Program-made: the position numbers and the translations under genes
Notes under the pieces: model-generated
Told to the model about the DNA's origin: nothing
Database searches by the model: none
The model's input: only the letters and a program-made list of their open reading frames with translations
Shown: one piece after another, positions 2,661 through 63,522 of the stretch
Layout of the letters: the number at the start of each line of letters is the position of its first letter
Numbering within the stretch: the first letter of the stretch is position 1
DNA from: Bryum argenteum
Lineage: Eukaryota > Streptophyta > Bryopsida > Bryales > Bryaceae
Reading direction: 5' to 3'
Assembly (NCBI GenBank): GCA_037043015.1
Contig: CM073321.1
Coordinates: 315,001-379,000 of the forward strand
Length of the DNA stretch: 64,000 bases

Positions 2661-4580
2661 CTATTCACAATACCAAGTCCAAATGATTTTAATCGGAGGC
2701 CCACGACCATCAGATCGATTACCGACCGGTCGAGTTGGATCACCACGTGGCAACAAACAACGACCTTTCGAGTCCTCTCTCCACAACTTAATTCCGGTTG
2801 TATAATTTGGCAACCAATCTTTTGTTGTGAACGAAACCTTGTACTTCATCACAGGACAACCAGACGAATCCAATAAAAACTTGAATTGTTGTACCTTCGT
2901 ATGACCCAAAAGTGCTTCCTCTTCATGCCTAATAAACCCATTGATAAATCTTTTAAAATAAGGAACTTCTTCAACAAAGTGGGAGATGGCTGGAATAGAT
3001 TTCACGTCTATGAAAGTTCATGAGTAACGGAATAGTGGGGAAATTGTCTTTCCTCAACAACATGCTCCACCTCCCAAACATTGCATCGATGTCATCATGG
3101 GTATGCCCAACCAACATGAAATTGACGTATACCTCCCAGAAGATCTTCTTTGCGACAAGGAGAGACCAAAAACAGAATACATATCTATTCTTGTTGTCAC
3201 CTGCTGCATTGTCCATCTGAACTTTAAGAATTGGCGGAAGAGGAATCCCTCGAAGTGGAAGAACTGGTGCTGGACGGAGTAATGATATGCAAGTCTCCGC
3301 ACCTTGAAGAACAGCATCAAAGATAGGTGCCGACCTCGACACAACAAAAAGCTCCCTCGAAGAGTACTTTGGTGGCAAATCTATATCTCAGAGCAGCTTA
3401 GCAAAAGAACCCAGCGTGTAATTTGAATCCTGTGTGAAAATATCTAGACTGTAATGCGCGTAGCGTACATCTCCGTGGCCATGGGTTTCTTGGCATAAAA
3501 TTCAGGAAAGTGTAACTTCCGAATTCTACTCAGGCAAGATGGCTAGACCATCTTCAAACCGAAGCCTTCATTTGCGGCGTTGATCTCCGGGATGGCACTC
3601 TTCCATTTCCATGTAGCGGGAAGAATCATCGATACAACCTTCTCTCCAGATTTCAATGTCCTCGTTCGGTGGGGCATGTGATCCGCAGAGTTCTCCAGTA
3701 TGCAACGCAGGGTTGCAGTTGCCTACGACGTGTGCTTACGCGGTTTAAGCAAAGACAAATTTCCATGGGGATGCGCCATGACGCCATCGGCCACGTACAT
3801 TTGAAACTGATGGAAGGTTGCCTCACACACTCGAGCAATATGTCTCCACACAGGCAAGCAAACATCGATTTCCTCAACCGGGACCACCCGCTTCCCGTCA
3901 ACATTCGGATGAACCTGCCTGTGAACGTCAAGCTTCATGTGAAACCTGAATTGGTAGGTCGTTCCTCTATACATCCGCTCTCGGAAAGATTGGATCTTCT
4001 CCCTCGGGAAGGGCTGAACATAGTTCCTGGTTCAGCAAACTTTGCTTGAGACAGAGTTGAAAGACTCCTGAGTTAATAATCCTTTGGATTTGACGGATGT
4101 TTCACGAGGCAGGTTCCTAGCTGTATTGTTGTAACATCCGCTACGCGATTACTGAGGTCTCGCAAGAAGTGTAACACGAGAGTCATGATCGTGTTTTATC
4201 TCATGGTCTCTAAGACTAGCCCCATTGTAGAAGACTTTATCAAACAGCCACGCCCTGACAGAATATCTCCACTCATCTGGCACCACAATGGCATCAATGG
4301 TCTTCGAAATTTGAACTGCAATTCGGGAGTGCTCAAGTGGACTATTGGACAAGATCGTAACTGATGCTGTGACATAGGCCCTCCGCTACAGGCCGACCCT
4401 CGTCACCGTAAAGGGTAACGAACTAAGTAGCCCAAAAACGCTGGGGGATACCTTCACAGATTGGAAAGTTTTCTAGCACCTCCGGTTGCTCTACAACATC
4501 CACGTCAGAGGAGAAATCACCAAGCATTTGAGCATCTTGAGCAGTCATGGTAGAAATTGCACAATCATCACAAACGATAG
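2661..4580 (-). pseudogene. DUF7869-type gene, first copy, decayed
   Basis: The clearest block (3378-2971) carries the family signature: QMDNAAGDNKNRYVF, then a hydrophobic LLVAKKIFWEVYVNF segment, then VGHTHDDIDAMFGR. The 3005-2661 block continues it with LLDSSGCPVMKYKV and a WLPNYTTGIKLW stretch. Upstream blocks (3974-3723, 4352-4149) look like the N-terminal half, and an ATG at 4548 opens a short exon beginning MTAQDAQML. Stops and frame changes separate the blocks, so it is broken. DUF7869 proteins are uncharacterised and common in plants and oomycetes. The conserved D-N and H-x-H-x-D-I-D residues would suit a metal-binding RNase H-like nuclease or transposase, but that is my inference. 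The colinear second copy at 48.4-49.9 kb supports the family call. Confidence 0.72.
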
Positions 4581-5945
4581 CTTAAATAACAAAAGAATCC
4601 ATGGCAGTTCAACTCGACTCTAGTTGAATACATTAATGACAGAACAAACCCAGTTTTATATATCCGTCAATTCAATTCAGGAAACAGAAATAGAAGAAAA
4701 TAATTTAGACAAAGAAAATATGTATGAATAGATTCAACTCGACTCGAGTTGAAATTCCCGGAATAGAATTCCTACAATAATTAAAATAGTCGTTATCATA
4801 AAATTTGGTACTCAAGATACTGAAGGCATTTAAAGTGGCACGAGTGTTTATAGCTATTAATAAGTAGCCATAAAATCACACCAATCAAGAACTTAATATA
4901 TATGCGGTATTTAGTACTCAAGTCTATTTAGACTTAAGAATGCATTGAATTTGCTGTTGTGTCGGAAAATATATTTTTGAATTCAACTCAAGTTGAGTTG
5001 AATATCCACAAATATTTGCTGCGAATCCACTGCAAGGACAAATATATATCTAATTATGAGCGATTTCTAATTTAACTCGATTCGAGTTAAATATTGTTGG
5101 GGTGATCACAATATCACGTGGCTTAGCCGGAAATCGTGCAGCGTGAATTTCAACTCGACTCGAGTTGAATATTTGGATCTTTAAAGAGATTATCTTCTCA
5201 CGGCTAAACCAGTTGACACTGGATGTTGTCCAATTCAACTCGAGTCGAGTTGAATATCAACACCCATGAATATATCATTCCTGTTTCTGTGAATATTATT
5301 CATACTTATCGAATATATCTGCAGTTATGTGATAATTTATATTTAACTTGATTCGAGTTATATATTATGGGTATGACAACAATATGAAGTGTCCCTGCCG
5401 TATATCCACACCGTGAATTTCAACCCGAATCGAGTTGAATATCCACATCTATAAAGGAAACATTTTCTTACGAATAAACCAAATAACACTAGATGATTCC
5501 CAATTCAACTCAACTCCAGTTGGATATCAACACCCATGAATATATTATTCCTAATTCTGACACCATGATTGATAGTTGACGAATTACAATTTAACTCCAC
5601 TCGAGTTAAAATTGTACGGTGGGAATTAGACATACATACTACGACTATATAATTTCAACTCGACTCGAGTTGAATTCGTTCAGTACGGACGAGTATGCTA
5701 AAACATTCTCCTGGAAATATCGGTGGAATTTACGGAACTCATAACCAGCTAACACTCAAAAATATACAGTGACGTATAAGGTGCGACGTGAATACTCATT
5801 TAATGAATGAGCACAGATTCCAGAACATAATCCCCACAAACACAGAAAAGTTATCCCTGTCAGGAGATAACGTGCATGCTATTAATAGTAAGTGTTGAAA
5901 CACTGAGGAATTGTGCCTTGCACTCAATTTGCGAACCACGCTCAC
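4581..5945 (-). other. Probable leader intron of the DUF7869-type gene
   Basis: On the minus strand a good donor (CAG followed by GTGAGC, at 5945) and a pyrimidine-rich acceptor ending TTTAAG (at 4581) bracket this stretch. The acceptor lies about 30 bases before the ATG at 4548. All 11 palindromes of the first cluster fall inside it. Splicing is inferred from consensus only. Confidence 0.45.
4608..5674. repeat. Palindrome cluster A1 (11 sites)
   Basis: Eleven 21-base sites built as arm TTCAACTCGA, one free base, arm TCGAGTTGAA start at 4608, 4733, 4982, 5071, 5149, 5234, 5342, 5419, 5504, 5590 and 5654. Those at 4733, 5149, 5234 and 5654 match the consensus arms exactly. 4982 and 5071 differ from consensus but changed both arms together, so they stay perfect palindromes. 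Typical spacing is 77-90 bases. From 5071 on, a unit of about 270 bases carrying three sites is tandemly duplicated (5071/5149/5234 against 5342/5419/5504). Confidence 0.93.
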
Positions 5946-6420
5946 CTGCGAATTGCAGATTTTGAAAGGGAAAGTAGGGCTCGCAACTAAAGAAAACACG
6001 CACAACAATCAGTGGCTAATACGAAAATAAAAAAAAAAAACATGACGAGCAACTGTCATAACTTGAAACATAATCAAACATCATGCGCCTCTTCTACAAT
6101 ACTAAAACTTCTAAATGAGGAACTACATCGATCCCAGTGAATACCAACTCAAACTTCTTCTACACAAACACGAATCTTGAACACACACCGGAACAAAATA
6201 TCGCACTAAGCGCACCTTGAGAGCACGGACGAGAGTGAGAGAACTGAAAGGAAAGGTTGAGAGACTGACTAGCCCGACCCTAGTCCGACCTCAACGGCTA
6301 CATCGTGAGAGTATCCTCAATGCCTGATATCGTGCAAAAAGACGACGCATTTTGTCACAATATGAATTTTGTCTTCATAAGGCTCTTAAATAGGATTTCG
6401 ATTTTTAAAACCGAGTTTTG
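5946..6420 (-). promoter_or_regulatory. Possible 5' leader and promoter side of the DUF7869-type gene
   Basis: The stretch upstream of the inferred donor at 5945 has no long reading frame. It would be the non-coding first exon and promoter if the leader-intron model is right. I cannot place a TATA box or start site with confidence. Confidence 0.25.
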
Positions 6421-7530
6421 AAAATATTTGGCGGCAAAGATGTTTCGGCGGGAAACTGATTTTTGGAAAGAAAGCCATTCATAAATATGGATTTTTTATA
6501 TTTTACAAACAATTGTGTCTTAAATTTTTCTCCATAAAATTCAACATTCATACATAACTATAGCTTGTGGAAAAAAAATACAAATTCGTATTCATATATT
6601 TATCGAATAAAATATAATAATTACAAAATTAGAGTAACTAGAGTAACTGAGAACATTCCATTGACAAATCTTCACTTAATTAGACACAATCAATGGAATC
6701 AAATATGTTGTAGACTACTTATAAAAAATACATTAAAAAAACATAGAATACTAACATAGAATAAAAACAACACAAATAAATGAGCATATGAATAAATATA
6801 AATATAAATATACACATATACATAATATGTTAAATACATAATATTTTATGTCAATTATAATTGTTTTTGAGATAAATTTGAATACAAATTAAGCATTTAT
6901 TGTGCTAACTTAATATAGAATGAAAGAAGCGCAATTACATGCCCATAAGAGTACAAATAAATATAGGAATAAATAAACAAATAAATAAATATACATATAT
7001 ATAGATATATATACGAGTACAAATGTATATGAAAATATAAATAAGTACGTATATATACATTGATACTAGTATAGAATTTAAATTCATAAAATCTTAATTC
7101 AATTATATTTGATTATAACATAAATTTCAATACATATTGAGCATTTATTGTGTTATCTTAATATAGAATAAGGAAAGCGCAACTATATGCCCATGCGAGT
7201 TCAAATATGTATATATATGAATAGATAAATAAATAAATATATGTATATATAAATATATATATAGATACTAGTATAGAAGTTAAATTCATAAAATCTTAAG
7301 TCAATTATATTAATTCAAAGATAAAGTTGAATACAAATTAAGCATTTATTGTGCTATCTTAATATAGAATAAAAAAGCGCAATTAAACGCCCATGAGTAC
7401 AAATATATATATGAATAAATAAATAAGTACGTATATATACATAGATACTAGTATAGAACTTAAATTCATAAAATCCTAATTCAATCATACTGATTCTAAG
7501 ATAAAGCTGAATACAAATTAAGAAAGGAGG
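6421..7530. repeat. AT-rich tandem repeats, unit about 180-250 bases
   Basis: Very AT-rich DNA. A block containing 'gcatttattgtgctatctta' followed by 'aatatagaata' and 'gcgcaatta' begins near 6880, 7129 and 7330, with a partial fourth start near 7510. The linked block 'gatactagtatagaa' recurs near 7063, 7265 and 7446. These are three and a half diverged tandem copies. No gene is visible. Confidence 0.7.
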
Positions 7531-7877
7531 GTAATTCTCTCTAAATTTACTCTAGTTTGTTTTGTCATGTGTTATTTGTTTTTAACTAAAAATTACGTTA
7601 TAATAATATATTAGCTATATTATTAGTATTTTAATGTTATATTCCTAGTATAGAAGTTATAACAATTGTGCAAGATCAACATTTACATATGAATTGAGTG
7701 TTGACAATTAAGTTATATTTCATCGTTATATAGGTTCATTATAACTAAATTGACTCTCATTCTATTTGAAGTGACTTCTCAAAGACTATTAGAAAAATAC
7801 TCTGTAAGGCGATTTGTAGCCAATAATCTACTACTATAACATAATATTGTTGGACGATCCTTTGGTATGTATGACTA

Positions 7878-8141
7878 ATGGCTATGGTATGAATGATGTA
7901 TGGTGATGGTATGTGTGATGTATGGCGATGGTATGTGTGATGTATGGCGATGGTATGTGTGATGTATGGCGATGGTATGTGTGATGTATGGCGATGGTAT
8001 ATGTGATGTATGGCGATGATATGTGTGATGTATGGCGATGGTATGTGTGATGTATGGCGATGATATGTGTGATGTATGGCGATGGTATGTGTGATGTATG
8101 GCGATGGTATGTGTGATGTATGGCGATGGTATGTGTGTTGT
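7878..8141. repeat. 22-base minisatellite, 12 copies
   Basis: Twelve consecutive 22-base units, consensus atggcgatggta followed by tgtgtgatgt, occupy exactly 264 bases with only scattered single-base differences. The 133-codon open frame on the minus strand across it is just the repeat read in all three phases (22 codons per 66 bases). Degenerate units recur near 8955-9020. Confidence 0.93.
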
Positions 8142-8639
8142 ATGGCCTTAGTATACATGATGTTTCTTAAAGATGTCTTCTATCTATATACTCCCACTGT
8201 ATTATTCATATTGTCCAATACATTCTCTCAAACCTTCCGACCTACTTATTTATCTATCCAATAATATTATTAATTTGTAGCCAATAATATTATTAATAAA
8301 ATTTTATGTTGTAATAATACTAATATAATACTCATAATTTAATGATGATTTAATGTAATAGGAATAATATAGTAATTATAGTAATAGTACAATACAGGCC
8401 AAATAAAATTTGCAAAAAAGTTATTCTAATTATAGTACCGAGGTCCAAGGATTTAGAACAAAAATTGGTATCAATAGAAAAAATAAGTTATATCATAGAC
8501 AGTGGTGGACGTGATATTAGAGTGATTAACCATCTTGAGGTAATCGATCGATGTTTCCCATCGTAGGAGGCCACGTCTACACGTATCCATTTTAGCAATG
8601 GTGACTTTACTAGTATATATATTGTCACAGACATACATT

Positions 8640-8960
8640 AGAAACTTGTAGAAGATTGAGAAGCGTCTCGGAGCATCTCAAAAGGCGCTTGAGAAGTCTC
8701 GGAATTCGCTTGAGAAGTCTCAGAAGAAGCTTCCTATTTGGTAGTATATATAGGAGTCGAGGCTGAAGGGTTCTTTAGTCACGACAACACATCTCTTGTA
8801 GTTCTCACGTTTCTTGGTGTTGTTCGTATTCTTGTTCTGTTAATCCAAGTTCTTGTTAGTTTCTCTCGAATATCCTTGTGTCTTTCCGTGTTCTTGACAT
8901 ATATATATCTACTTCGATCTTCTTATATCTACTTTTATAACATAACATTCTTTGGCGATG
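8640..8960 (+). promoter_or_regulatory. LTR-like or promoter-like segment with TATA and heat-shock-like element
   Basis: A 21-base phrase, cgcttgagaagtctcggaat, is repeated in tandem (about 8687 and 8708). It is followed by agaagaagcttcc (8723-8735), which resembles a heat-shock element, and a strong TATA (TATATATAG, 8745-8752). The sequence downstream is T-rich and leader-like, with no gene. It resembles the U3-R part of a solo LTR, but I could not find LTR ends or a partner copy. Confidence 0.35.
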
Positions 8961-9059
8961 CCTTAGTATGCGTGATATATAGTCATGGTATGTATGATGT
9001 ATGGTCATGTTATGCATGATGTACCTCAATGGTATTTTCTATCTATATATATAACAAAA

Positions 9060-10290
9060 ATAGGTTTTTAATCCGACGTTCCTTTTTACCCACTTAGGTA
9101 CACACCTACCTATCTACCAACCTATCAACATACAAATCTACCAATCTATTATATATTTTGGATTCTGTATAAAAACAATGTTAAAAAAGCAAAAATAACA
9201 ATAAATAAATAAATAAATAAATAAAAAGCAACAAGAAAATAAACATGCACACATAAAAATAATAAGCTTCATAATCTTTAAGTAATTAGTAGATAGGAGA
9301 TACTTTTTTAGCTTTAGCGTCAAGAGGACAACGAGGACCTTACTAGTTTAGAGATAGTTAAGAAATAAGTACTCATATATAAGCATTATCAATGTTGAAT
9401 TAATACTTGAGTGTTGACAATGAAATAACGTTTGTTTATTATTGTTTGTATATAACTTATATAAAAACCTATAGACAATTATTTTGTAATTATCCGTTAA
9501 CCCCTAAAGATCTAGGACGACCAAATCAGGCTTTTGCTATTTTGGGTAACGTAGATGAATAGGTTGAAAGTAATAGTTTAGTTTAAATATTTTGATGGAT
9601 GCTCCCTCTACTCCAGAGTTTATGAGGTATATTTTGCAAAGCCAAGTTCCAATTTGGGAGTCTCGTCTTGTTTTTGAACTACGTATACTCGAGTAAAAAA
9701 CAGATACATACATAATTAAAATAAACATAGTATTGTTTAAAAGAATTGTAGACACATGATACGTTTTTAGCTTCTACGCCTTGTTGATAGGGACATTTCT
9801 AGTATAACAAAATTGGATTATCGGTGATAGATCTGGCGATCCTTCCTATCAACCTACGTACCTATCTCGTACAAACATTCCTACCTATCTAGCTACCTAT
9901 CTACCAACATACAAACGTACTTACCTACGCACCTACTTTTTATGCTTTTATATTACATTAAAAAAATAATGTTAACGAAGCAAAAATAATAAACCAAAAA
10001 AAACAAAAAAAAAAACAACAAAAAAATAATCACGCACGGATAAAAATAATGAGCATGACAACATCTTAGAAATTGGTAGAGAGGGGATAATGTTTTAGCT
10101 TCCTTCTCCGGACAACAATGACCTTATTGGTTTAGAGAACGGTAACTAATGGTTAGTGGGATATGAGCATTATCAAAGTTGAATTAGTGCTTGGGTGTTG
10201 ACAATTAAATACTATTTGTTTTTTCTTGTTTGTATCTAATTTCAATATATAACTACACACAACTTTTTAGTAATTAAAACATCGAGTAAA
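9060..10290. repeat. Diverged direct duplication of about 430 bases
   Basis: The segment 9060-9490 and the segment 9830-10290 run in parallel: a 'cctacctatctacc' region, an 'aacaatgttaaaaaagcaaaaat'-type A-rich stretch, then 'gttgaattaRtRcttg' with 'gtgttgacaat', and a 'tttgtt...ttgtttgtat' end. A further partial relative lies near 7680-7740. Repeats of this kind are probably fossil non-autonomous transposons. No gene is visible. Confidence 0.65.
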
Positions 10291-10529
10291 ATTTAGGCTC
10301 TACAACACTTTACAATAGTACATGTAGTATAAAATAGTGAAAAATAGTATGGAATTTAGTGTAGTGTAGAGACGGGCAGACATGAAAAGGGCAAGAAATT
10401 GCTGCCCGGGGCAATATTCGGCTGGGGCAGCATGTAAGGCGGCCTGGGTAGGCAGGGTAGTGGAGAAGGCGGCCCGGGCAAGATTAGGGGCAACCCGCCC
10501 GAATTCTGGCCAGGAACGGAGAGTGGGGG
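10291..10529. other. GC-rich, imperfectly repetitive spacer
   Basis: From about 10380 there is an abrupt change from AT-rich to GC-rich sequence with repeated 'ggcagggtag' and 'ggcccgggc'-like phrases. No coding signal is visible. It directly precedes the leader of copy A. Confidence 0.3.
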
Positions 10530-11880
10530 GGGGCTAGGGTTTGGCCCCCATTCTATTCCTCGTCATCCTCCCTACTGCGCTGCCGCATGCTTGTTTTCGT
10601 CTGTCGGCAACATCATTTGTGTTTTCTTGATTTTCTTGCTATCGCTACCTCCTGGCCTCAAAAGTAGCTATCTCCTGGCCTCGAAGGATGTGTTACTCGC
10701 TCATGGTTATATAGTCTCTTCTACTATCTACTCGCTTGTCTTTGTAGATTCTCGCCTGTCTTCTATGCTCTTAGACGCTTCTTGCTCTGCTCCCCGACGC
10801 ATTTTGCTTCTCTTAGCTCTGCGCCTTGACCCCATTAGCTTCCAATGGTGTAGACTTCTCTTGCGCGACGCTGTTGGCTTGTGAAGCTGTCTTCTGCGTC
10901 TCGAAGTATCCGCTTCCCGAGATTTTTGCTGCATCAAGTGGGTGGCTTGTTTGGCGCTTTTGCAGCTTGGGCGGCGCTCACCGAAGTTCTTGGACTTCCC
11001 AACCTTATTTGTAAGTCACTTGGCACTATTTGTAGCTTTTGTTTTGCATTTTCATTCTTTAGTGTTTGCTTATTTTGTTCATTTCTGTCAGTTTTCCAAA
11101 CTTCGGTACTTGAATTTGACTAGCTTTCAGGATCCTTAAAATTTGAGTGACTACTTTAGAAAAGATGAGGAGGAACTTTGAGTGTAGATGTGTGATTTAG
11201 AAAAAAAAGGAAACTGGCTTGTTGGAGCTGGTTCATCAAATTTCAGAACCCTAAATGTTAAGAGCAGCTCTGGAATTTGAATGTTGAAACAAAAAGGGTG
11301 GATTTTTTGAGCTGTTTAGGTTTGATTCGGAGCAGTTCACAAATTCGTTCAATCGGCAATTTATGAGAGTTGTCAATCAGATTGTACTTAGTGATTTTAG
11401 ATATTCAAGATGCGTATGTTCACTTCCAGATCATCGATTTTTCAATCATTTGCAATTGAATGTAACTACTATGTGATTCTTGCATACTTGACTCTGCGTT
11501 ACTTTTGAGAATTTCCTTATGAATCATTCATTGTACAATTCGATTATCCTATAACAGGGCATTCAGGATTGCATCAAATTTTGTTTCCTGCAGATGTAAA
11601 TGTACTTTGAAAATGCATCAATGTATTGTCTTTTTGACGCTCCAAAAATGCGTTTGACCTTATTCTCACGAATTGCAAGTAATTCTTTCGTAATAAGCTC
11701 TCTAAGCTGTGTAGAGATTTACATGTTTCTTTGATAACTCTGTACATAGTGACTAAATGGTATTACGATACTGATCAAATTTGAATGCCATATTGTTTGC
11801 TTCATGATTAGGACAAAGCTGAGGATTGTCCAATTGTCTGCGGTTTCCACATACTAGAAGGGAAGCAAACATAACAATGG
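10530..11880 (+). promoter_or_regulatory. 5' leader of ParB/methyltransferase-like copy A, with a leader intron
   Basis: A plant-type leader phrase (ctagggtttgg, near 10534) starts a pyrimidine-rich, ATG-poor stretch. It ends in a consensus donor, TTATTT followed by GTAAGT at 11011. A matching acceptor, gattag at 11810-11811, opens a 69-base exon that ends AACATAACAATGG at 11880, immediately before another consensus donor, GTGAGT. The intron 11011-11811 is T-rich like many plant leader introns. The model is inferred from splice consensus and from the fit to the coding frame downstream. Confidence 0.45.
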
Positions 11881-12883
11881 GTGAGTAAACATTATTTTTA
11901 TCTCGTTCAGTCTAAAGATGTTTTAGCAGAGTTGTTTGGCAGTTCAACCCGACCGGAGTTGAATTGGAAATACATGTACTACCTATGCATACCAACGCCA
12001 ATATAGAGTACAATCAGATCAACTCGTGCCGAGTTGAATTCTCCATTCAATTTTGTTTGCGTACATTAATGTCCACCAAAAACACCAAGCAAATTCGACA
12101 ATAGCCAGAAAATTCTCCTCGCTGGACGCCCACGAGTTCACACACTAAAGAGAATTCAACTCGACCCGAGTTAAATCTCTAATCCAATAATCTCTTAATG
12201 GTTAAAGTAGCATTATAAGTAGCGATGAATAACTCATACATTCTGGAATAGAATAAAAATAGGATATAGATAACTTCGGCTGAAACAATTCAACTCCACT
12301 CGAGCTGAATCGATAAATTACTAGATATAAGCGGTATTGGAAAAATTCGGTTATGCTTACAAAGAAAATCGAAAGTGCCCTTGAGGTACAAGAAAGAGTC
12401 AGTCCAGTCCTGCCAATCCACTTCAGTTAGTCTCAATGTACATATTCAACTCGAGTCAAGTTGAATGAGAGAAGCGCCCTATGCGGACATGGTTTCCGTA
12501 TAGTTGAGACATGACATGACAAACCCGATTGAAGTATAGCACAAATCCTCTGACTAAATAAGGCAGGAACATTAGTCCATACATTCAACTCGATTTGAGT
12601 TGAAATGAATAAGATGAATCTCGACAGAACGCTTATCTTCAAGTTAAATTCAACTTGACTCGGGTTGAAAGTATTCAAGAATTGTATGAAGAGATCATAA
12701 CACTCCTCGAAGGAAACATTCAACTCGAATTGAGTTGAATTTAACTTCCGTGGACAGTTGCTAACGATATTTGTAATGTATTAGAAATTGATAGAATTCT
12801 ATTTCAACTCGACTCGAGTTGAATATTAATCCTTGCAATATATTTGGATAAATACTCATTTGGCCTCCGCGTCTCATCACGAG
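11881..12883 (+). other. Intron 1 of copy A, splitting the second codon
   Basis: Donor GTGAGT directly follows ATGG. The acceptor tctcatcacgag at 12883 has a pyrimidine-rich lead-in and restores the reading frame (G plus AA gives glutamate). No upstream ATG joins the large exon otherwise: the frame closes at 12820 with no methionine. All nine sites of cluster A2 lie within. Confidence 0.5.
11943..12823. repeat. Palindrome cluster A2 (9 sites)
   Basis: Sites of the TTCAACTCGA-N-TCGAGTTGAA type start at 11943, 12018, 12155, 12289, 12445, 12584, 12649, 12719 and 12803. Spacing is 65-156 bases. The last is perfect; others have one to three arm mismatches, for example 12584 and 12719 with a single TTGAG for TCGAG. 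Between the sites the sequence is not obviously repeated. Confidence 0.92.
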
Positions 12884-14306
12884 AAAACAATCCCAACGAA
12901 AGGCTCTTAGCATTCTTCAAGCCCTATGTTCCTGATGAGGACAGCGAAGTCATAGACCCAGAAATATTTGGCGACATGTGGGTGCAGACAGAGCCTTCCA
13001 ATGTCAAATGGTGGAATATGCTCCTTACATCGCACACGGACAAGTTGGCTGTCGTCACCAAGTACACGGGAGAAGAGTGCAACCTTCACGTCAATTTGGA
13101 GGAGAACATCATCGATGACGTCGTCCACAACACCCACTGGATCTGCGTGACGTGCATCGTGGACGACCCCACTCAAGACACAACTCCTGACCAAGACTAC
13201 CAGTTCACTTACATAATCGATACTATGAAGATCAAATTCGACATTTGGGCTCATGTTGAGAGTATAAAAAATTCTCAGTACAATCCCTTGGCGAAAAATG
13301 TCGAGCAACACATTCGCGAGTTCCGATTCACAACCAAGCTTGGTAACCAGCAGCCTCCAAATGTTCTCGCCCCTCGTCTTCGATCATTGGTCACTGCCAT
13401 GGTGAACTACAAGGCAAAGCTGCAATGCAAGAAGATGCAAATGCAGCCCCTTCTGACGCAGGAAGTAAGCATGCACAGTGGCATCCACGAGTCAATCCTA
13501 TATCAAGCTCATGAGACGGCGAGATCAAAGAGGTGCAAGGCGAATCCGTCCCAAACTCAGCGGGGGCAGACACCAAAGAAGCTCAAATCAGTCACGACAA
13601 AGAAGTCGACCCTGGCCGAACCCATGGAGATAGATCACGCGAGCCTAGCGTCGGCCTTGACAGACGTCCCCATCAACAATATAGAGATAGTTGTCGACTA
13701 CAAAGCGACCATGAATGTCTTCAAGAACTACTAGGCTCTTTGCTAGGACTCTTACATCTTCGGCTCAGATGCCACTTTCGAGATTCCGATCGAGCGTCTC
13801 TTTACTTTCCACCTGGACCTGAACATCCGGAACCTCAAGCAAGCAAAGGTCAAGCACACGATGTACTTCTTGATTGAGATGTCCGATAAGGAGAAAAAGA
13901 ACACCCTCTGCGTCTTCCCAAAGAATAAGCTCGTAAAACCCCAATCTTGGGAGGAGATACAGAGCGGGAGTTCTACATGGTCAATGGACAACACTGTGTC
14001 AAGGCCTCCAAGCAGTTGCAAAACATGCTAGATGTAGATGAGAAGATCAGGGACTCTTTTAAGGCCTGAGACTGCTTCGTAGTAGGGAATGAAGATAAGT
14101 CCATCATTCGGAGAATCTTCGCGTTCTACAACAGGGTCAACCACTTCATGAATACAAATCCAACATAGGCGACAAACATCATCGGGGCGCGGAAGATGTG
14201 GACTAGCCTTGGTAGACCGGAGAATTCAAAGGAGGCTAATGAGGTTGGTAGGGCCGTCACAGAGAAGGCCTCGAAGGGCAAGAAACCAGCTAAAGACGCG
14301 TTCAAT

Positions 14307-14470
14307 GTATGTGCAACTCCATTCAACTCGATTCGAGTTGAATTGTGTCCTACAATACTAACGATGAACTTTTTCGATGAACACCTCCTCTAGACTCTAT
14401 TCCAGCTATAACCTATTTCAGCTCGACTCGAGTTAAATTTCTAACCCATTATCGTACTTGGTTGATACAG
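14307..14470 (+). other. Intron 2 of copy A, with two palindromes
   Basis: Donor GTATGT and acceptor gatacag give a phase-0 intron between ...KKPAKDAFN and EFIKAVKLRFALIDV. Copy B has an intron acceptor at exactly the same place, before KFVESIRYRFAMIDV. Palindromes start at 14322 (perfect arms) and 14418. Confidence 0.8.
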
Positions 14471-15829
14471 GAGTTCATTAAAGCTGTAAAACTTAGATTT
14501 GCTCTCATTGACGTCAAGGGCGCCAAGAAAGCAGTGACAGCAAGCAAGTCGGCTAGAAAAAAGCTCAACATCCGGAATGAGCTTAAAATCATCTGTGCTC
14601 CTGATGATGTCTACGAGGTCTGGCTTCAGCTTATCTCAGCCGCATCCTAAGGGGAAATCATTGACCCCGACACATGAAGGAAGATGAAGGAGTTGGGGAA
14701 GTGGAAGGCAGAGCATGGAATCATCTCCAGGGAGTTCTTCAAATGGATCAGCAACACAAGCTATCCCCAAACGATTAGCCGAGCATATGCTCAACAAACC
14801 AAACCCAAAACGGTCATTTCCATACTCCAAAGTGAGGTTAAAGCAGATGAAGGGTGTGTTTGTAGATTGCTACAGCTCCAACGAGTGGCTGGAGCGCTGC
14901 AAGAGGAAGACCATCGTGAAGCGCGTGATTCACAACATGCGCCCTGACCTAATGCTGTTCAACACGAGTAGGGACTTTAGAAAGGAGAGCTGGAAGAAAT
15001 TCAAGAGCGATTTCAAGATAACGCTAGCTACACTAAACGTTCTGATCACGAATCCCGGGGAGACGTTCTTTGTGCAGTCAAAATTCCCCGGCAACAAGAA
15101 CAAGTCCATAGAAAAACTCTCGCCGTATGCAGCAGAGTTCTTTAGAGTCTTCTCGCCAACAAAGGGAAGTTTCAGGTTCCAAAGGGCGAGGCAAACTTCA
15201 AGGCCTGCAACGTGGAGGACAATGTGTTCAAGGAATGGCACGGTGACTCTTGGAACAAATTATCTTCCAAGAGAATCAAGGTTGGTATAATGGACTTCCG
15301 TAATCTCCCTGGAGTACAGGCGGTATCGCCTTCATCAAGCTCGTCATCAGGCTCGTACTTCTACAACGTCCTCCAAGTCCTAAAGTCTATCACGGACCCG
15401 GTGGTTACTGAAATCCCCGTTTGGGTTTGGATCTGCGGAAGTAGGGATGCTGAGGCGAAGATTAAGAATCACCTTGATAGTCGCGGGTTCGGAAAGAACT
15501 ACAAGATTGAGTATGCGGAATATATTCCGGCTCCATATGAGCGACTCAAGGATCATACCCTCTCGACCAAGAAGGCCAAGGATCATGTCTAGATCCTCTT
15601 CTTGTTTCAAAAATCGCAGAAGTTGAAGATTCCGAACCTCCCCAAGTTCTTCCCGGCCCCCGACACTCCACAGTTCAACATCTGCGGGAGATACAACGAA
15701 CTCGAGTACCGTATCTATAATACGGCGTTGAGGATGGAGCTCTACGTGAAGCTGCTTGATTTCTTCTGCAAGGAAGGGGATGCGATCCTCAGTGTTTTTG
15801 GAGGCGGGAAGCTCTACTGTGCAGCCTGG

Positions 15830-16292
15830 GTAAGGATATCCTATATATTTCAACTCGATTTGAGTTGAATAGTTTGACATGACTGTGTTGCTTTCTAAGT
15901 TCGTTGTATTTAACTGGAGTCGAGTTTGATGCGCACTTCAGTGTGCAGAGATCATTTCACACTTGAACTCTATTCAACTCGACTCGAGTTGAATGGATTA
16001 TTAAGTCTGCTACGAAACCATGTTATTATATTTAACTCGAGCCGAATTGAACACGAACTATAGACTAGTTAGGTCCATTTTTCTCATGCGGTCTTAAATT
16101 TAACTCGACTCGAGTTGAATGTATTGATTGCTGGCGCTTAGTAGTTTAAATTTGGTATTTAACTCGAGTCGAGTTGAATGTGCACATCAGAATAGTATAG
16201 TACTGCTCTCACACGCAAGCTCCGCTCTAACTCAAATCGAGTTACACTTACAAGTTATTGATAATTTCATCTCTTATTGTGTCTACTCGGAG
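15830..16292 (+). other. Intron 3 of copy A, with palindrome cluster A4 (7 sites)
   Basis: Donor GTAAGG follows ...KLYCAAW, and the acceptor ctactcggag precedes MCSLINYTISSSDKHDE, phase 0. Copy B breaks at the same codon. Palindromes start at 15849, 15909, 15973, 16031, 16099, 16158 and 16226, spaced 58-68 bases. 15973 is perfect; 16099 and 16158 have one arm TTTAA. Confidence 0.82.
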
Positions 16293-17202
16293 ATGTGTTC
16301 GCTGATAAATTACACGATCAGCTCTAGTGACAAGCACGACGAAGTCGTCAAACTTTTGATGGAGGTCTTCAGCTTGGATCGTCGAGATTTCCAAAGTGGG
16401 TACCCGATCGGTGAGGCTTCCAGATCCAGGGAGAGACTGAAACCACCACCACCCCCCTTGAAGGCCGAGAAGGGAAAGGCAAACAAGAAGGTCAAGGGGG
16501 TAGAGTTACCACTTGACGTGAATGCCCCGAGACCCCATAGTAATCGGGTGAAGTGACAATGATGACGATCTTGACCAAGATGTTGAGGCTTACGGATCCC
16601 AACTTTCGATAACGCCCCAAATTGAACGAGGCTCATCTTTTTATCTTCTTCATCCCCAGGAACATGGCTTTTCCGATAGCTCTCTTCCGGCTTCCACCCC
16701 TCTGCCTCAGAAGAAGCGAAAGGAGTCATCATCCGTTGACACTCTAATGGAAAGCCTCTTTCGAATGCAGGTGGAGGCGCAAACGCAACATAGGATCGAA
16801 GTTGAAGCAATGCTTGCTCGAGAGCGCGAGGAACGCAAAATTCAGAGACTGGAGGATGAGCAACGATGGAGCGTAATGATGTCTCAGGCCTTTGAGAGAA
16901 TACCTGGGATAGTAATCCAAGCCATTTTGCACCTCAATGCAAAGCCGCTCCTCATGCTCGACCCAAGTCATAGTGAACCTCTGCTTCTGACCCACGGGGC
17001 CACTCAGTCTTACAACAACGGTCCAGCTCAACAGGCATCTCCTCGACGTTCCCTCCAAGGCATGCCGTTCGAGTCAACTGCAGCTCTAGCACCTACGGGC
17101 ACTATCGATCAAGAGGATTGTAGAGATCAAGGCCCAGCAAGTCGCTCCATACCCTCGGACCCAGTCGATGTGGAAATGAAGGCCGTCGATGAAGAAGAGC
17201 AG

Positions 17203-17440
17203 GTAGGAACACATGATAAAACAAAAGGTTATCGAATCAGGTTGAACTCCATGATCTAGTCTTTCATTTAACTCGACTCGAGTTGAATTGCTCCTACGAC
17301 TAATGGCAGAGCGCCTGTAGAAGCCTTCGAGAGTTGTTGTTAGCCCAGTATATATATCTTTCTAGGACAATTTTGTTTGATTGGACTTAGTGTTCATTGT
17401 GTAAATACTTTTTGAAAATGACTCTCATTTTTGAACGCAG
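17203..17440 (+). other. Intron 4 of copy A, with one palindrome
   Basis: Donor AG/GTAGGA follows ...VDEEEQ. The acceptor is either gaacgcag at 17440 or tttttacgcag at 17496; the second gives an open 25-codon tail. One palindrome starts at 17267 (TTTAACTCGA, C, TCGAGTTGAA). Confidence 0.5.
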
Positions 17441-17837
17441 AGTTTGGAATACAACCATATGTTCGTACACAATGTCTCCATCTGATTTTTACGCAGGCTC
17501 TATTGATTTGCGAAGTGTTCCAAATGTATGTTCGTCTCATCAGGTCTTCTCTTTGGAAGACACTAGTCCGATGAGTCCTTTCCATGGTAAGCCAAGTAAC
17601 ACAACGCAAGATGATCTCAATGAAGGTCACATTCCGGATTAAATCTTGCTCGAGGTTCACATTCCTCTTTCATCCTCGACCGCTGTACGAGATTCACAAA
17701 CAAATGAAACTCAATGAGAGACGCCGTTAAGCTCTTCCCATACCAAAATCCCATCTTCATTCAATCCTTTCTTTATGAGTTTGGTGTGATTGCATTGTTT
17801 GGATTTGGGATTTCTTAGTGTTATAGTGATCGTCACT

Positions 17838-18685
17838 CTCGAAATGTGGCAGTGCAGTACTTAACTGTCTACACATTTGTCTGCCCCCCTTCTGAACACG
17901 GAATGAGTCATTCGCACAGTCTGGTAGTTGCAGCCATGGAGGATGTCCGTCGTTCTATTCCTTCAAGGGTGCCATCCAAGTGGCTCAATGTCATCATGGA
18001 CTTGAACGGTATTCTCTGTGTCTGCAAGGAGAAGAGATTTATGCCATAGGACCAAGTTTACAACATGGTCGGTTCCTTTGTCCTACCCGCTCCGATTAGT
18101 CCCAAGGCTGTTTTCGTTCCGCCCTTCTGCCTTGATTTCCATTGTGAGTTGAGTGAAGTTGCATACATCTCTGTATGGAGTTCGATGGTTCATGCGACCA
18201 CAAAGTTCATATGTGACTACTTGTTCCGGGGTGTGCCATCCTCGTACCTTATTTGTGGGCAGAACTCATGTAAGGTTGTGAAGGTTCGTGGACTGCGGAA
18301 TAAATTGTCCAACTTCGAGATGAAGGGGACTAATAAGGATCTCTTCTCCAAACCACTGGATATGCTTTTCAATGGTCTAAACTCAAAGTTTAATGAGCAT
18401 GACACGTTCATCATCGACGATAGCCGTGAGAAACACGTCGCGAATGATTCTGAGAATGTTGTACCGCCAATCTCGTGGTCAGAGCATGATGAATTTGACA
18501 GATTCTTGGTGGAGGAGCTCCTCCCTTGGATTCAACGGCGACATCGAAGCGACGGTTAGGGCTTGTTGTCTTTCCGTAGGGAAGACAACATTGGGCGTAG
18601 AATGCTCTGTGAAGAGCTCGATACTTCAGAATACGAAGAGCTTAGTAGCGCCTTAGAGGCTTCTAGAAAGCTAGTGGTTGATTAG
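17838..18685 (+). pseudogene. FCP1/NIF-like HAD phosphatase, interrupted
   Basis: Reads KWLNVIMDLNGILCVC, the plant variant (DLNG) of HAD motif I in the FCP1-homology (NLI-interacting factor) family. VAYISVWSSMVHATTKFI (motif II region), GQNSCKVVKVRGL, LFSKPLDMLF and FIIDDSREKHV (motif III, paired aspartates) then follow, with VEELLPWIQ at the end. Family members dephosphorylate serine on protein substrates such as the RNA polymerase II tail; the substrate here is unknown. Two in-frame TAG codons interrupt it, at 18047 inside the domain and at 18557 before a 41-codon in-frame extension ending in TAG at 18683. The N-terminus is not resolved. It follows copy A on the same strand and may be a passenger or partner. 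Confidence 0.72.
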
Positions 18686-18750
18686 GCTAGTTAACCAAGA
18701 TTGGTCTCACCAGACAAGATTCAAATTTGTCATGTATATTGCGTAGATTA

Positions 18751-18756
18751 TAATAA
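18751..18756 (+). terminator. Possible polyadenylation signal
   Basis: An AATAAA hexamer lies about 65 bases past the last in-frame stop of the phosphatase relic. It is a common hexamer in AT-rich DNA, so support is weak. Confidence 0.3.
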
Positions 18757-18867
18757 ATGATTTCAATAATAATGTTTCGTCTCGGACTGATTTCATTTCA
18801 GAGCGTGCTTGTGTCCGACCTTTTATTTTATCGTAGTATTTGATGGTGCTAGTTCTCTGAGCATTGA

Positions 18868-18888
18868 TTTAACTCAAGTTGAGTTGAT
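18868..18888. repeat. Isolated A-type palindrome
   Basis: TTTAACTCAA, G, TTGAGTTGAT. The inner change CGA to CAA is matched by TCG to TTG in the other arm, so symmetry is kept. It is the last A-type site. It lies about 50 bases before the next gene's first possible ATG. Confidence 0.8.
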
Positions 18889-18935
18889 TTGGCTATATCA
18901 TATTGCATATAATCCTTGTTGATGATTCCTCTAAA

Positions 18936-19831
18936 ATGAATTCGTATCGAGGTGTCCAATTCTGTCTCGGTTTTCGACAATGATGTTGATTTCCGTTGCG
19001 CTACTTCTGCTGATTCGATATTGGACTATGGACAATACACAATTTTGCAGAGTGGAATGGGCCATATAATATACTCAGCAGCTACCGCACAATCAACTAT
19101 GGACTACTCGATGATGGTGTTGTGGATAGTCCTCCTTATGGCGGTAAAGGACCACACTCTGCATGTTTTCCTTCCCCGCTGAAGAACCGTACCATGATAG
19201 ACGAATCAAGTGGAGGTGGCGCTCCGCAAAGAAAGCTTTATGATGATTTTGAGTTATTTGAGGATGCACTTCCGGTACAGGTATGTAATAAGTGAAGCGG
19301 TTCATCTATGAATTTTTCTGTGGTTGTTAACTTCAATCATAATTTGATTTACTTACATTTCTCTATCTCTTTTCATGGACTTAGGCGACAGCAACAGCAG
19401 CCGTGCCCATACCGGTCATCTTTGAGTCCCCGGCTCTTTGTGTATCACCTCTAAAGGCATCGACGCCGAACATATCTCGTGGTGCGACAACATATTCTCT
19501 CTCTACGCCTTGTCTATTAAAGTCTTTGGAGCCGGCAACAGAACTTGGAGACACGACAGAATTAATGGGGCCACCTAAAGTGTCTGACGCCCATGCTGTT
19601 GATACCTCGTGTTTCCCCATCCGTACTATGCGCCCGCCATTACAAGAAGGTCACCGACAGACTCAATCACACGATGGATTTCAGCCCAGAGTTACTTGTC
19701 CTCCAATTCGTGATGCATGGGAGCAACGGATTTTGAAGCTTCAAAGACGGGAAAAATCAAGTTCTCGTTTGTCACCATACACATGCTACAGTCGTGGCCC
19801 AGAAGTGTGGAAGGCACTAGTAGAAATTTGA
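18936..19831 (+). pseudogene. Unknown two-exon gene
   Basis: Exon 1 includes VSNSVSVFDNDVDFRCATS and, after a frame change near 19097, LLDDGVVDSPPYGGKG and LYDDFELFEDALPVQ. It ends in a consensus donor (ACAG followed by GTATGT, 19281). The acceptor at 19384 opens exon 2 (ATATAAVPIPVIFESPALCV to PEVWKALVEI, stop at 19829) in the same phase. The protein is acidic and proline/serine-rich with no domain I know. It may be a separate gene, or part of the phosphatase gene upstream. Confidence 0.45.
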
Positions 19832-20240
19832 AGCTGTTCGCACTTGTGATACGACAATAGTGTTGATATGATTTAGAGGACATTGATCAGCGTAGTTCTT
19901 CATAGATAGCCTACGTTCAACACGATACTATATTGTTCTATTGGTATAGAAATATTTTATTTACTATCGTACGTTCAGATCATTTATATGTAACTAGAGC
20001 TCACATTTATATCTGGATGAGCATATTTCCTATGACGAGGTCAATTGGTGTATACAATGTCTATAAATAAACATACATTCATGTATATCCCATTTTGGTA
20101 TACAATTATTCATCCATCTATATCTACTTTATACCATTTTTAATGGCCTATATGGCTTTTCATCATCTCTTCAGGGACTCAACAATACTCTCATTTTTGC
20201 GGGATACTCTCAAAATAATGAATATGGTGTTTAGGTGAGA
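19832..20240. other. AT-rich spacer, no gene
   Basis: No coding signal, repeat or RNA gene recognised. Composition changes sharply at about 20240 to GC-rich. Confidence 0.4.
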
Positions 20241-27900: not shown

Positions 27901-28778
27901 TGTACTTGCTCTTTGGATCCATGCGTCCACCCAGTTATCACCTGCTTGCTTAATGCTTTGGTTGCCGGAGTATTATCAATGACGACCCCTTCGGAGACTT
28001 CGGTGGTAAACCTTGGTGGGATATCGAGGGTGTCCTCTTGTGAGACCACGCTGGCCAAGTGAATCTCTGGTAGCGGGATTAGATTGGAGTCGGCGTGGAA
28101 AACCAAGGCCTCTTGTTTGTGCGTTAGCCCTTTGCCCCATGTCATACCAGCCTGATTCCTTATTTGTTTGACTTTTTCTCGAGTGATGCAGTTGTCTACA
28201 GGAATTATCATGGTTTTCCCGTATCTTCGGATTCTGATCTGATTCCTGACCCAGTCATGAATTGCATTCATGTCTCTTAAGCAAGGTCGTCCCAAAATCA
28301 TAGGAAAATTGCTGCTATCCGGCATATCAATGACAAAAAAAGTTGCTGGTGTGGAAATACCGTGAGTGGTGATGGCCACGGTAGCTAATATTCCCAACGG
28401 AGTCACCGGGGCATCATTTGCCATTCTTAGGAGGAACTGTGCTGTCGTTGGCAATGGTAGACCTAACTGTTGTCGTAGGTGATCGCTAATTACGTTGACT
28501 CCGGAACCTCCGTCGACCAATACATTTTCTAATTGGTGCTGCCCTAAGCGGATATGTATGACAGCTGCATCGGTGTCTATGGTCGTTGCATTAATTTCCA
28601 CGGTTGCTGTTAGCCTAAATTCCGGTGACCCGGTTTTTAAGTCACAAGTTGGGCCGTGTAGGTGGAGTGCAACACTAATTAGCCTTCCAAGCAATGTCCT
28701 TTTAAATTCTCCTTACAATTTCAGCGCATCATTCATATTGATACTGAGAACTACTTGTGTTGATTTTATCCTTTCTTC
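24932..28778 (-). pseudogene. pol: pol of element 1
   Basis: Protease: NVLVDGGSGVNVI near 28490 (a DGGS active site rather than DTGA). Reverse transcriptase: PWLSPMVIIPKKNGALRICVDF near 27600-27520, and a YVDD catalytic box near 27245 in a frame-shifted stretch (27434-27139). RNase H: TDASKIAVGVML, then FMVDHYSLSYLVNQP and GKRHIVADYLSRD. Integrase: a zinc domain ending CHICQ, then RWRLDFVGPI, TDYTTKWVEA, IISDQGRHF and YYPQGNGQAE, giving the D, D, E catalytic set. The C-terminus has no chromodomain. It begins upstream of the longest frame, with a TAA inside NMNDALKL*GEFKRTL. Frameshifts near 27435, 27139 and 26410-26320 break it. Confidence 0.9.
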
Positions 28779-33077: not shown

Positions 33078-33470
33078 GCCGACCCCTCCAACAGTCCCAG
33101 CCGTGGCCACCATGGGCAAGCTATTGGTCCGCCGATGCAACAGATGGTGAGCCGACGCTGGTGAGTGCCTCATTTGGGTTCTCCCCGCACTTTGCTGGCC
33201 TAAAATCAATGGCGGGGGGTGCCGGGTCTGGTTGCAGAAGCCATTTGGAGGGTGCCGGCGGTGGATGCGCAGCCCCTTTGAAGGCCATTGCCGGGACTTT
33301 GCGGGTACCAGGGACATGTCGTCCTTGCAGGGGACATTTGGAGGGTGCCGACGGTGGATGCGCGACCCCTTTGACAGCCACTGCCGAGACTTTGCGGGTG
33401 CCGGGAAGGGTCATCGTTGCACGGGACTTCTGGAGGATGCTGTTAAGGGGGCTTTCTAGAAACTCACCCT
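33078..33470. repeat. GC-rich duplication of about 97 bases
   Basis: The phrase 'catttggagggtgccg' with 'cggtggatgcgc' and 'ccctttga' downstream occurs at 33242 and 33339, a tandem pair 97 bases apart. Composition resembles the repeats at 20.2-20.9 kb. No gene is visible. Confidence 0.65.
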
Positions 33471-61252: not shown

Positions 61253-61545
61253 TTACAAAAACACACTACAGCTTGGACAACGGAATTGCTCTAAAGCTAG
61301 AGCGGACATGGTTGAAAAACAAGCATGACAGTTTCGCTCGAGTCGAGCTAAACTGTAAGGGACCCTTTGAGGTCCATATGGGTATGATAGTTTAGCTCGA
61401 GTCAAGCTAAACTGTAAGGGACCGTTTAAGGTCCACGTGGGTATGACAGTTTAGCTCAACTCGAGCTAAACTGTAGGGAATCCTATGAGCGCAAATTGAA
61501 TACGACAGTTTAGCTCAAGTCGAGCTAAACTGTTAGGAAGCTTAC
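61253..61545 (-). other. Intron of copy B holding palindrome array B1
   Basis: Donor GTAAGC (61545) lies at the same codon as copy A's donor at 15830. The downstream exon starts with M.SL..YTI in both. The acceptor dinucleotide here reads AA instead of AG (TTTTTGTAA before ATG), so splicing is probably lost. Confidence 0.72.
61332..61529. repeat. Palindrome array B1: four sites in a 59-base tandem repeat
   Basis: Sites built on TTTAGCTCGA, one base, TCGAGCTAAA start at 61332, 61391, 61450 and 61509, exactly 59 bases apart. Each is extended by CAG...CTG or a close variant to about 27 bases. The spacer contains a second short hairpin (GGACC, six bases, GGTCC) in the first unit. Each site has a single arm mismatch. 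Confidence 0.95.
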
Positions 61546-62798
61546 CACTCTTGCGCAGACTGCTTTTCCGCCAGTGTAGACAAGCAAATATTCTAGTGCT
61601 CCTGGCAAAAAATCTGGATGACCTGCACATAAAAATCCATCCTCAACTCGATGGGGTACATGTGATACCGAGACTCGTTGTACTTCAGCGGCGTCTCATA
61701 AAGCGCGTACTTTGGAGCGCGATACTCAGTCTCTAGCAATCTCGCGAGTCTCACGTCTTCCCTGATCATGAAGAGAAGACGCACAGGCTCCGAGGCTTGC
61801 TTCGCTTTCGCAGAGAATCCAACGATCCGTTTGTGCGGGGATGGATTGTACAATGATGAAATCAACTTATAATTCGCCCCTGAGAAGTAGGCAGGATTTT
61901 TTGCAAACGCCTCAACTTGCGCGTAATCATTGTGATCCCTGCAAATAAAGAACCAGCAAGGTACATCTGTGAGAGCTGGCTTGTTCTCGGATGATAAGAT
62001 CGCCATGAACATTTTGAAAAATGGGTGGTCAGGCGAGGAATCGGAGATGCTACCACTACCCGGAATCAATCTGAAGTCGATGATTTCAATGTTCATATCA
62101 GGTGCAACTTCCGGCCATGAGTTCCCAAGCCAATCTCCAAGCCTTTGTGGTGTTTTGCGCTAGAAGGAACGGAATATTATACTACCAAGAAGGCCTTTGA
62201 ACTTCTCACGCTTTTCCAGAAACACCTCGAAGAACCTCTTTGCATAGAGAGAGAGATCCTCGCAGCTGATATTGTTGTACTAGGTTTGCCTTTGATCTGC
62301 ATAATATTTATTAGGGATACCCCATTCCAAAAGTGCGCGCTTGGAGGCCTTTGTGACGTGGTAGTCTTTCTTGAACTTCTTCCACGCATCCACGTCGAAC
62401 TCGTCATTCTTGAAGATCCCGAGTGTGGGGCGGATCTTGTAGATCTGAAGCTGGGCGGTCGCCTTCCGATTCAACCGTTCAACGTAGGCCTTGACGGAGT
62501 AGCAATCTTCAAGAAGGGTGACTAGTTGTTTGAGGGTAACCTTCGGATATTCCAAATTCCGAGACGGACCTGACCTATTAAGCATATGTGTACAGAGTTT
62601 CCTATGGTCCGACTCAGAAAGGTTACCGAGGTTCTTAAAAAATTCCCTCGACAGATTTTGGTCATTGTTTGGTTTGAACCCTGGCACAGCTGCCTCAAGG
62701 AGTAGGGGTCGATAAGGGTCCCCTGAGCGACACTTCCAATCAACTCTGCCCATAGATCCTAGAGATCATCAGGGAAGGTGATGATCTTTAGCTCATTA

Positions 62799-63015
62799 CA
62801 CTGAATTTGATAATTAGTGTTAGATACACTAATTTATATAAACATGTTATAAGTTTTTACTGTTGTTCAATAATTTTACCGACTATATTGGCCAAGATGG
62901 AAGTCCTTATATAGTATTGAAGTCAATGCTCTTGGTAAATTTTTTAAAACAAAAGTAAAAACTTATAGCATTTTCAAATCTTATAATAATCTAACACTAA
63001 TTATCAAATTTAGTG
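62799..63015. mobile_element. Foldback MITE with TA target duplication, inside an exon of copy B
   Basis: The ends are inverted copies: CACTGAATTTGATAATTAG and, inverted on the right, CACTAAATTTGATAATTAG, both going on into GTGTTAGA. The inverted repeat continues imperfectly inward ('ttataagtttttact' in both arms) for about 100 bases, so nearly the whole 217-base element folds on itself. It is flanked by TA on both sides. Removing it rejoins ...KDKVLSL to NELKIITFPDDL, matching copy A. Confidence 0.88.
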
Positions 63016-63106
63016 TAGTGAGGGACAAGACCTTGTCTTTCACCTCTACCTGGGCCTTGGCAACATCAATCATGGCGAACCTATATCGAATAGATTCAAC
63101 AAATTT

Positions 63107-63522
63107 CTGCAATGCCACGAAAGTAGAGTGTAAGATTACAGAGTATGAGAGAGTGATCACTTTAGCTCAAGTCGAGCTAAAGTGCGCATACGGCATTTAG
63201 AAGCAGTTGTATACAGAAGTGTTCGACTTTATAAAGCAGCAACGACAGTTCAGCTCGAGTCGAGCTAAACTGCCACGATAAATCAATCGCACAATTCCGA
63301 ACTATAAGTGACTGATCACTTTAACTCGACCCAAGCTAAAGTGCAAGCTACAGGGTTAGAAGTAATGAAAATTAAAATGTAGAACTTGATTAACCTGCAG
63401 TGACAGTTTAGCTCGACTTGAGCTAAATTGCCACGAGAAATTATTCACAATTAAAAAAGGTAGATTTGCGATGCGACTTGTGATAATACTTATGTCAAAA
63501 TATGCGTACTATGACACAATAC
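63107..63522 (-). other. Intron of copy B holding palindrome array B2
   Basis: Acceptor GGCATTGCAG precedes AAATTTGTTGAA (KFVE), the same place as copy A's intron 2 acceptor. The donor is probably GTATTG at 63522. All four B2 sites fall inside. Confidence 0.68.
63161..63427. repeat. Palindrome array B2 (4 sites)
   Basis: B-type sites start at 63161, 63249, 63320 and 63407. Outer flanks are CAC...GTG at 63161 and 63320 but CAG...CTG at 63249, so the outer triplet also stays complementary. 63320 is the most decayed. Confidence 0.93.

Follow-up and report, generated by a model that had tools for sequence, protein, structure and literature searches.

What accounts for a dense set of odd-length palindromes that lies almost entirely within introns? 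This question is raised by a 64-kb stretch of the genome of the moss Bryum argenteum (hereafter, the window; contig CM073321.1, here C1, C1:315001-379000). An initial annotation of this DNA had described 31 such palindromes, 30 of them in inferred introns of two adjacent genes, and 8 related ones in a second region, copy B. A pattern search that admitted up to 6 mismatches reproduced these counts. The 31 palindromes, of the form TTCAACTCGA-N-TCGAGTTGAA, lie at 4608-18888 with at most 5 mismatches each, 30 in introns (11+9+2+7+1) and 1 downstream, while the 8 in copy B have 3-5 mismatches each to the window pattern (Table 1). With at most 3 mismatches, the window contains 28 matches, and 100 shuffled versions contained none. 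Introns in the window were assigned from the ends of homologous exons; introns 2 and 3 additionally have GT...AG borders, with donors conserved across the window copy and five full copies of the same element (E1-E5). On balance, and with modest confidence, we favor the explanation that the palindromes are double-strand recognition sites of a DNA transposon family, bound by the element's own ParB/methyltransferase-like protein in a way that resembles the VANC system. The family probably belongs to mosses.

Both of the genes seen in the initial annotation are present, but it was missed that they belong to a single transposon: they are divergent genes of one element and not separate loci with a common motif. 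Seven regions fetched from listed clusters of sites each proved to be a whole or partial copy of one element of ~15-17 kb, whose ends are inverted repeats starting AACACCATATTCATTATTTTGAGAG. This terminal repeat has 116 and 118 matches on the two strands of the B. argenteum genome with at most 3 mismatches (control, 0). Of 17 additional copies whose exact inverted repeats lie ~17 kb apart, we checked 10, and all 10 are bordered by 4-bp direct target duplications. Among the first six copies, judged by eye, 4 have a target duplication, 1 has a pair that is off by one base, and the right end of 1 falls outside the stretch. These inverted repeats and 4-bp duplications identify the carrier as a DNA transposon. 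Nothing in the window corresponds to the left 1549 bases of copy E4, save that their inverted repeat matches the right end.

In the genome as a whole (G000; 258.8 Mb in 25 contigs), the window form occurs at 2393 sites with at most 2 mismatches, and its reversed control at 0. A sister form, TTTAGCTCGA-N-TCGAGCTAAA (type TTTAGCTCGANTCGAGCTAAA), which the initial annotation missed, is 4-5 times commoner, with 11049 sites at the same threshold (reversed control, 0); palindromes midway between the two forms are counted in both numbers. Most of these sites are known as counts alone, and our inspection covered the listed clusters and the fetched regions. An even spread through the genome had been named in advance as a result that would refute the annotation. 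The spread does not look even: the 100 listed places of the 2393 sites are clustered, and all seven fetched regions carry the element. Exact matches to the core CTCGANTCGAG number 9262, versus 100 for its reversed control.

It had also been proposed that exons exclude the palindromes while something keeps them in introns, and both parts of this proposal are borne out. In each of six copies, a tblastn search with exons of copy E4, cut by hand at the ends of homologous exons, assigned 31-45% to coding sequence. With up to 4 mismatches allowed, and a site classed as coding when the overlap amounts to 11 or more of its 21 bases, homology-supported coding sequence contains 0 of 169 palindromes, where 68.9 would be expected at an even spread, although sites of related copies are not independent. 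As to retention, the divergence between copies in four intron alignments is 0.025, 0.055, 0.030 and 0.071 per base in the palindrome arms and 0.116, 0.102, 0.184 and 0.188 in the spacers, i.e., ~2-6 times lower in the arms. When 2000 sets of spacer windows were drawn at random for each of the four introns, 0 reached a divergence as low as that of the arms. This test includes the leader intron of copies E1-E5; the first of the alignments, with 9 copies, was retained even though it is gappy, since the L027 stretch is longer. Between groups, the first introns of two subfamilies and of the window copy show 52-64% identity with the palindromes counted in (shuffled controls, 43-44%), yet each contains 9 to 14 palindromes with one consensus. 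Both arms of the palindrome mutate alike, as expected of a symmetric double-stranded site. We consider it very likely that the palindromes are selected as sites in double-stranded DNA.

The arms differ between element lineages within the one genome: they read TTCAA in the E copies and TTTAG in the sister loci L035, L036 and L060 and in copy B. At base pair 5/17, 163 of 169 sites of the TTCAA elements have A/T, and 58 of 62 sites of the sister loci and copy B have G/C. The three sister loci jointly hold the element's genes, together with arrays of 32, 33, 35, 46 and 53 bp units. In the 53-bp arrays (L035, 6253-7663; L036, 8832-9861), the palindrome often belongs to a more extended one (cca...tgg, in the best case caagccca...tgggcttg), which makes the spacers partly inverted repeats as well.

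Distant relatives, whose proteins are 31-42% identical, keep a palindrome in the same introns, with the constant core CTCGANTCGAG and symmetric arms that are specific to each lineage. All variants read from DNA have the center CGANTCG in their consensus. In the diverged elements L037 and L038, the arms are mostly TTCAGCTCGA, between exons 1 and 2 and past exon 2. In L039, they are mostly TTTATCCTCGA, between exons 1 and 2, a form with only 9 near matches in B. argenteum. These three elements come from a cyanobacterial genome bin and are probably contamination from moss. Further relatives are available as database proteins, often with tails that read on into the intron. Of 69 exon-2 matches, 50 were aligned, as were 18 of 18 exon-1 matches, and the 42 of these 68 whose tail was 8 residues or longer were counted; 22 of these 42 tails encode the core, compared with 0 of 42 reversed tails and 0.38 matches expected. 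The tails TSARLALN and TSVRIALI, of P0081 and P0085, suggest, at the level of amino acids, another form of the arms around a core like GCGANTCGC. In viral contigs, none of 22 pattern matches was confirmed.

On a quick tree built from 62 exon-2 proteins, 1 change of the arm base suffices for the 14 labelled rows, a result that 2 of 500 shuffles equalled. The labels of L036, L037, L038, L060 and E4 were taken from DNA and the rest from read-through tails; 48 of the 62 rows have no readable arm and carry no label, and the short P0006 was left out. By their proteins, E4 and L060 each cluster with elements of other origin, and L036 stands alone on a long branch.

These comparisons bear on who binds the sites. 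One alternative is that the transposon captured sites for a host transcription factor, which would serve it as intronic enhancers near its two divergent promoters. The palindromes do lie on either side of the stretch that separates the divergent DUF7869 and ParB-type genes, and the double-strand constraint on the arms would agree with such an explanation. However, under a host factor one arm type per genome should be favored, while both TTCAA and TTTAG occur in this one, and the proteins of E4 and L060 group with elements from other sources. We consider a host factor unlikely.

The sites could instead be repeats bound by the transposase. Many short symmetric motifs in a DNA transposon with a probable transposase would suit this idea: CACTA/En-Spm elements, which have CACTA ends and 3-bp duplications, carry subterminal repeats near both ends, and foldback elements carry repeat arrays. 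However, the arrays in E1-E5 are internal. None of these full copies has a palindrome within ~3.5 kb of its left end, and the outermost right-hand palindrome lies ~1.4 kb from the end in E4 and E5 (with 3-4 mismatches) and ~3 kb from it in E1-E3. Transposase binding is quite improbable. The element was also considered as a member of CACTA/En-Spm itself, and this was rejected: its ends read AACACC, its duplications are 4 bp and its palindromes are internal.

Of the three candidates put forward in the initial annotation, protein-binding sites fit best, and RNA hairpins and a tiny mobile palindrome do not fare well. If the palindromes folded as hairpins in the pre-mRNA and affected splicing or stability, their intronic location would be natural, as would the position of the first palindromes of introns 2, 3 and 4 in the window copy, at 15, 18 and 64 bases past the inferred 5' splice site. 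Selection on an RNA stem should, moreover, favor transitions that keep a G-U wobble pair over those that break the pair, and the raw transitions in the first 62 sites of the sister family do so (20 versus 8). With one more locus, this becomes 23 versus 14 and, with duplicates removed, 19 versus 13 (p 0.38). The TTCAA family has 39 distinct wobble-keeping and 38 pair-breaking transitions, and both families together, duplicates removed, have 58 versus 51 (p 0.57). In addition, RNA cannot close a loop of one base, which would leave the innermost pairs free to vary, yet CGANTCG is constant. We regard RNA hairpins as very improbable. Also very improbable is a functionless origin, either as a tiny mobile palindrome or by passive expansion of a repeat that exons tolerate poorly. 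Tandem arrays (units of 32, 33, 35, 46, 53 and 59 bp) do show that palindromes multiply by tandem duplication. Passive copies, however, should drift like the spacers and do not, and the palindromes have positions common to copies, travel with the large transposon, and keep to the same introns at 31-42% protein identity with symmetrically changed, lineage-specific arms.

We next consider the element's own proteins. Structure models suggest that the gene around most of the palindromes encodes a ParB fold and a beta-class DNA-methyltransferase fold. The ParB-CTPase fold is recovered by the model but not by a ParB sequence profile. Similarly, the model recovers the beta-class fold, but catalytic motif IV, (D/N/S)PP(Y/F/W), and motif I, FxGxG, are both missing from 51 of 51 methyltransferase-like rows. 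The residues at the expected catalytic places are DFRxxP-like and FxGxK-like (row P0058 stops before the K), and this domain has apparently lost its activity. A sequence search of the PDB gave no match for exon 1 and three weak matches for exon 2 (E 0.56-0.95). Among the relatives listed, the only named plant proteins are from Physcomitrium patens. As for the divergent DUF7869 gene, 1 of its 120 listed relatives (P0155) carries the source name transposase.

Since the arms differ between element lineages inside one genome, the element itself probably encodes the binder. A constant core with symmetric, lineage-specific arms is the trace expected of a dimeric binder whose specificity evolves. We predict that this binder is the ParB/methyltransferase-like protein, which would bind as a symmetric dimer; we give this identification an even chance. 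The protein is the best candidate because the families of both folds include members that act on palindromic DNA, and because the constant center GANTC is the target of CcrM, a beta-class DNA adenine methyltransferase (PMC6787082). Such a center would also account for the odd length of the palindrome. Selection would then keep the palindromes in the introns and leader of the divergent genes, since coding sequence cannot hold them. By analogy with VANC, the many bound sites in each copy probably mark the element's own copies, and would either counter silencing or drive and autoregulate its genes. That the effect is anti-silencing is a tentative suggestion. More speculative still, and in our view rather unlikely, is a parS-like system in which the ParB/dead-methyltransferase protein would load at dozens of GANTC-centered intronic palindromes and spread, keeping the element open or holding copies together, with an arm specificity that evolves in each lineage.

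It is important to emphasize the observations that weigh against binding by this protein, or against intronic DNA sites in general. Apart from the raw wobble excess given above, 2 of 31 palindromes in L036 (4655 and 1571) are located in open frames whose status is unsettled. Some palindromes of L036, L060 and copy B fall inside tblastn matches, where we assume that the ends of the matches are read-through of the query. The best Foldseek E-values are modest (1.1e-3 for the ParB fold and 9.0e-3 for the methyltransferase fold), and in Pfam 0 of 19 members match ParB (E up to 1) and 0 of 51 match a methyltransferase, only chance-level names being returned. The placing of DFRxxP at motif IV is a reading of the model's strands without residue alignment. 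Finally, co-evolution of arms and protein is inseparable from joint inheritance at 14 labelled rows: because both travel in one element, joint inheritance without any interaction would suffice.

Mutator-like elements, the class to which VANDAL belongs, have target duplications of ~9-10 bp, a long type that none of the 10 checked copies exhibits. In what we regard as the closest working parallel, the VANDAL transposons of Arabidopsis are described as having arrays of VANC motifs in introns and other noncoding parts, with turnover by tandem repeats and family-specific motifs (PMC5735166, PMC10398659). Our element is similar in that a short motif is present in many copies in noncoding DNA, including introns, grows in tandem, and differs among related families. 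It differs in that its motif is a 21-bp odd palindrome, while the VANC motif is the 9-base YAGTATTAY (PMC5735166, PMC10398659). Further differences are its 4-bp target duplications and its ParB and methyltransferase-like folds.

Relative to bacterial ParB/parS, the setting is a eukaryotic transposon, there is no Pfam-level match, and the methyltransferase motifs are absent. The bacterial site parS is palindromic, and its sequence is unlike that of the palindrome here. Nevertheless, the modelled ParB-CTPase fold and the palindromic sites are shared, and a ParB survey reports phage proteins in which this fold is fused to an N6/N4 methyltransferase domain, an arrangement that our protein resembles (PMC12704722). 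The main text of that survey does not contain 'transpos', 'plant' or 'moss' (PMC12704722). A search of one literature library, over titles and abstract openings, found no description of the system presented here.

Table 1. Features of the transposon copy in the window and of copy B (window positions).
Feature	Position	Strand	Basis or remark
DUF7869 gene, probable transposase (putative role)	2733..4385	-	PF25273, E 1.2e-37 in copy E4; tblastn on window
11 palindromes, leader intron of DUF7869 gene	4608..5674: 4608, 4733, 4982, 5071, 5149, 5234, 5342, 5419, 5504, 5590, 5654	.	pattern search; putative leader intron, borders not fixed
9 palindromes, intron 1 of ParB/methyltransferase-like gene, directly past ATG-G	11943..12823: 11943, 12018, 12155, 12289, 12445, 12584, 12649, 12719, 12803	.	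possible donor ATGG/GTGAGT ~11881; acceptor not fixed
Exon with predicted ParB-fold domain, frame interrupted in window copy	12877..14309	+	tblastn; fold modelled from copy E4
2 palindromes, intron 2 of ParB/methyltransferase-like gene	14322..14437	.	intron ~14307-14471, GTATGT...ACAG
Exon with predicted beta-class DNA-methyltransferase fold, catalytic motifs absent	14471..15832	+	tblastn, structure model
7 palindromes, intron 3 of ParB/methyltransferase-like gene	15849..16246: 15849, 15909, 15973, 16031, 16099, 16158, 16226	.	donor GTAAGG ~15831, intron end ~16292
Third exon, charged, coiled-coil-like by eye	16293..17202	+	homology to 16929; end at GT donor ~17203
1 palindrome, intron 4	17267..17287	.	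pattern search
NLI-interacting-factor/FCP1-like phosphatase gene	17834..18682	+	PF03031, E 1.9e-15 in copy E4; tblastn
1 palindrome, 3' of phosphatase gene	18868..18888	.	pattern search, 4 mismatches
Right terminal inverted repeat, AACACCATATTCATTATTTTGAGAG read on -	20206..20231	-	
Window copy of transposon, decayed, without ~1.5 kb of left end including left inverted repeat	2732..20231	+	mostly 70-92% DNA identity to other copies
Copy B, portion of related element, 8 sister-type palindromes TTTAGCTCGA-N-TCGAGCTAAA flanking methyltransferase-like exon	61332..63427	-	

Between the element's divergent genes, at 7863-8146, a 22-bp unit is repeated in tandem, in 12.9 copies with 93% matches. Elsewhere in the window, tandem arrays of 93-bp and 189-bp units lie at 33242-33440 and 55867-56214, and open frames at 24932-28712 resemble, as recognized by eye, a Gypsy-type LTR retrotransposon. 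An Rfam search of the whole window gave 0 matches at gathering scores. Contig C1 makes up 17% of the genome and holds 69 of the 96 listed exact matches to the terminal inverted repeat, many of which have no partner at 17 kb. This contig may be a poorly recombining (sex?) chromosome.

The introns of this transposon serve as a store for ~30 conserved, probably protein-binding palindromes in each copy, and the genome has thousands of such sites. The candidate binder has an unexpected make-up, in that models predict a ParB fold joined to an apparently inactive DNA-methyltransferase fold. If our explanation is true, the system would be an independent counterpart, in another plant lineage, of VANC anti-silencing. 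The co-evolution of a DNA-binding protein and its sites could then be tested over many lineages that have one core and differing arms.

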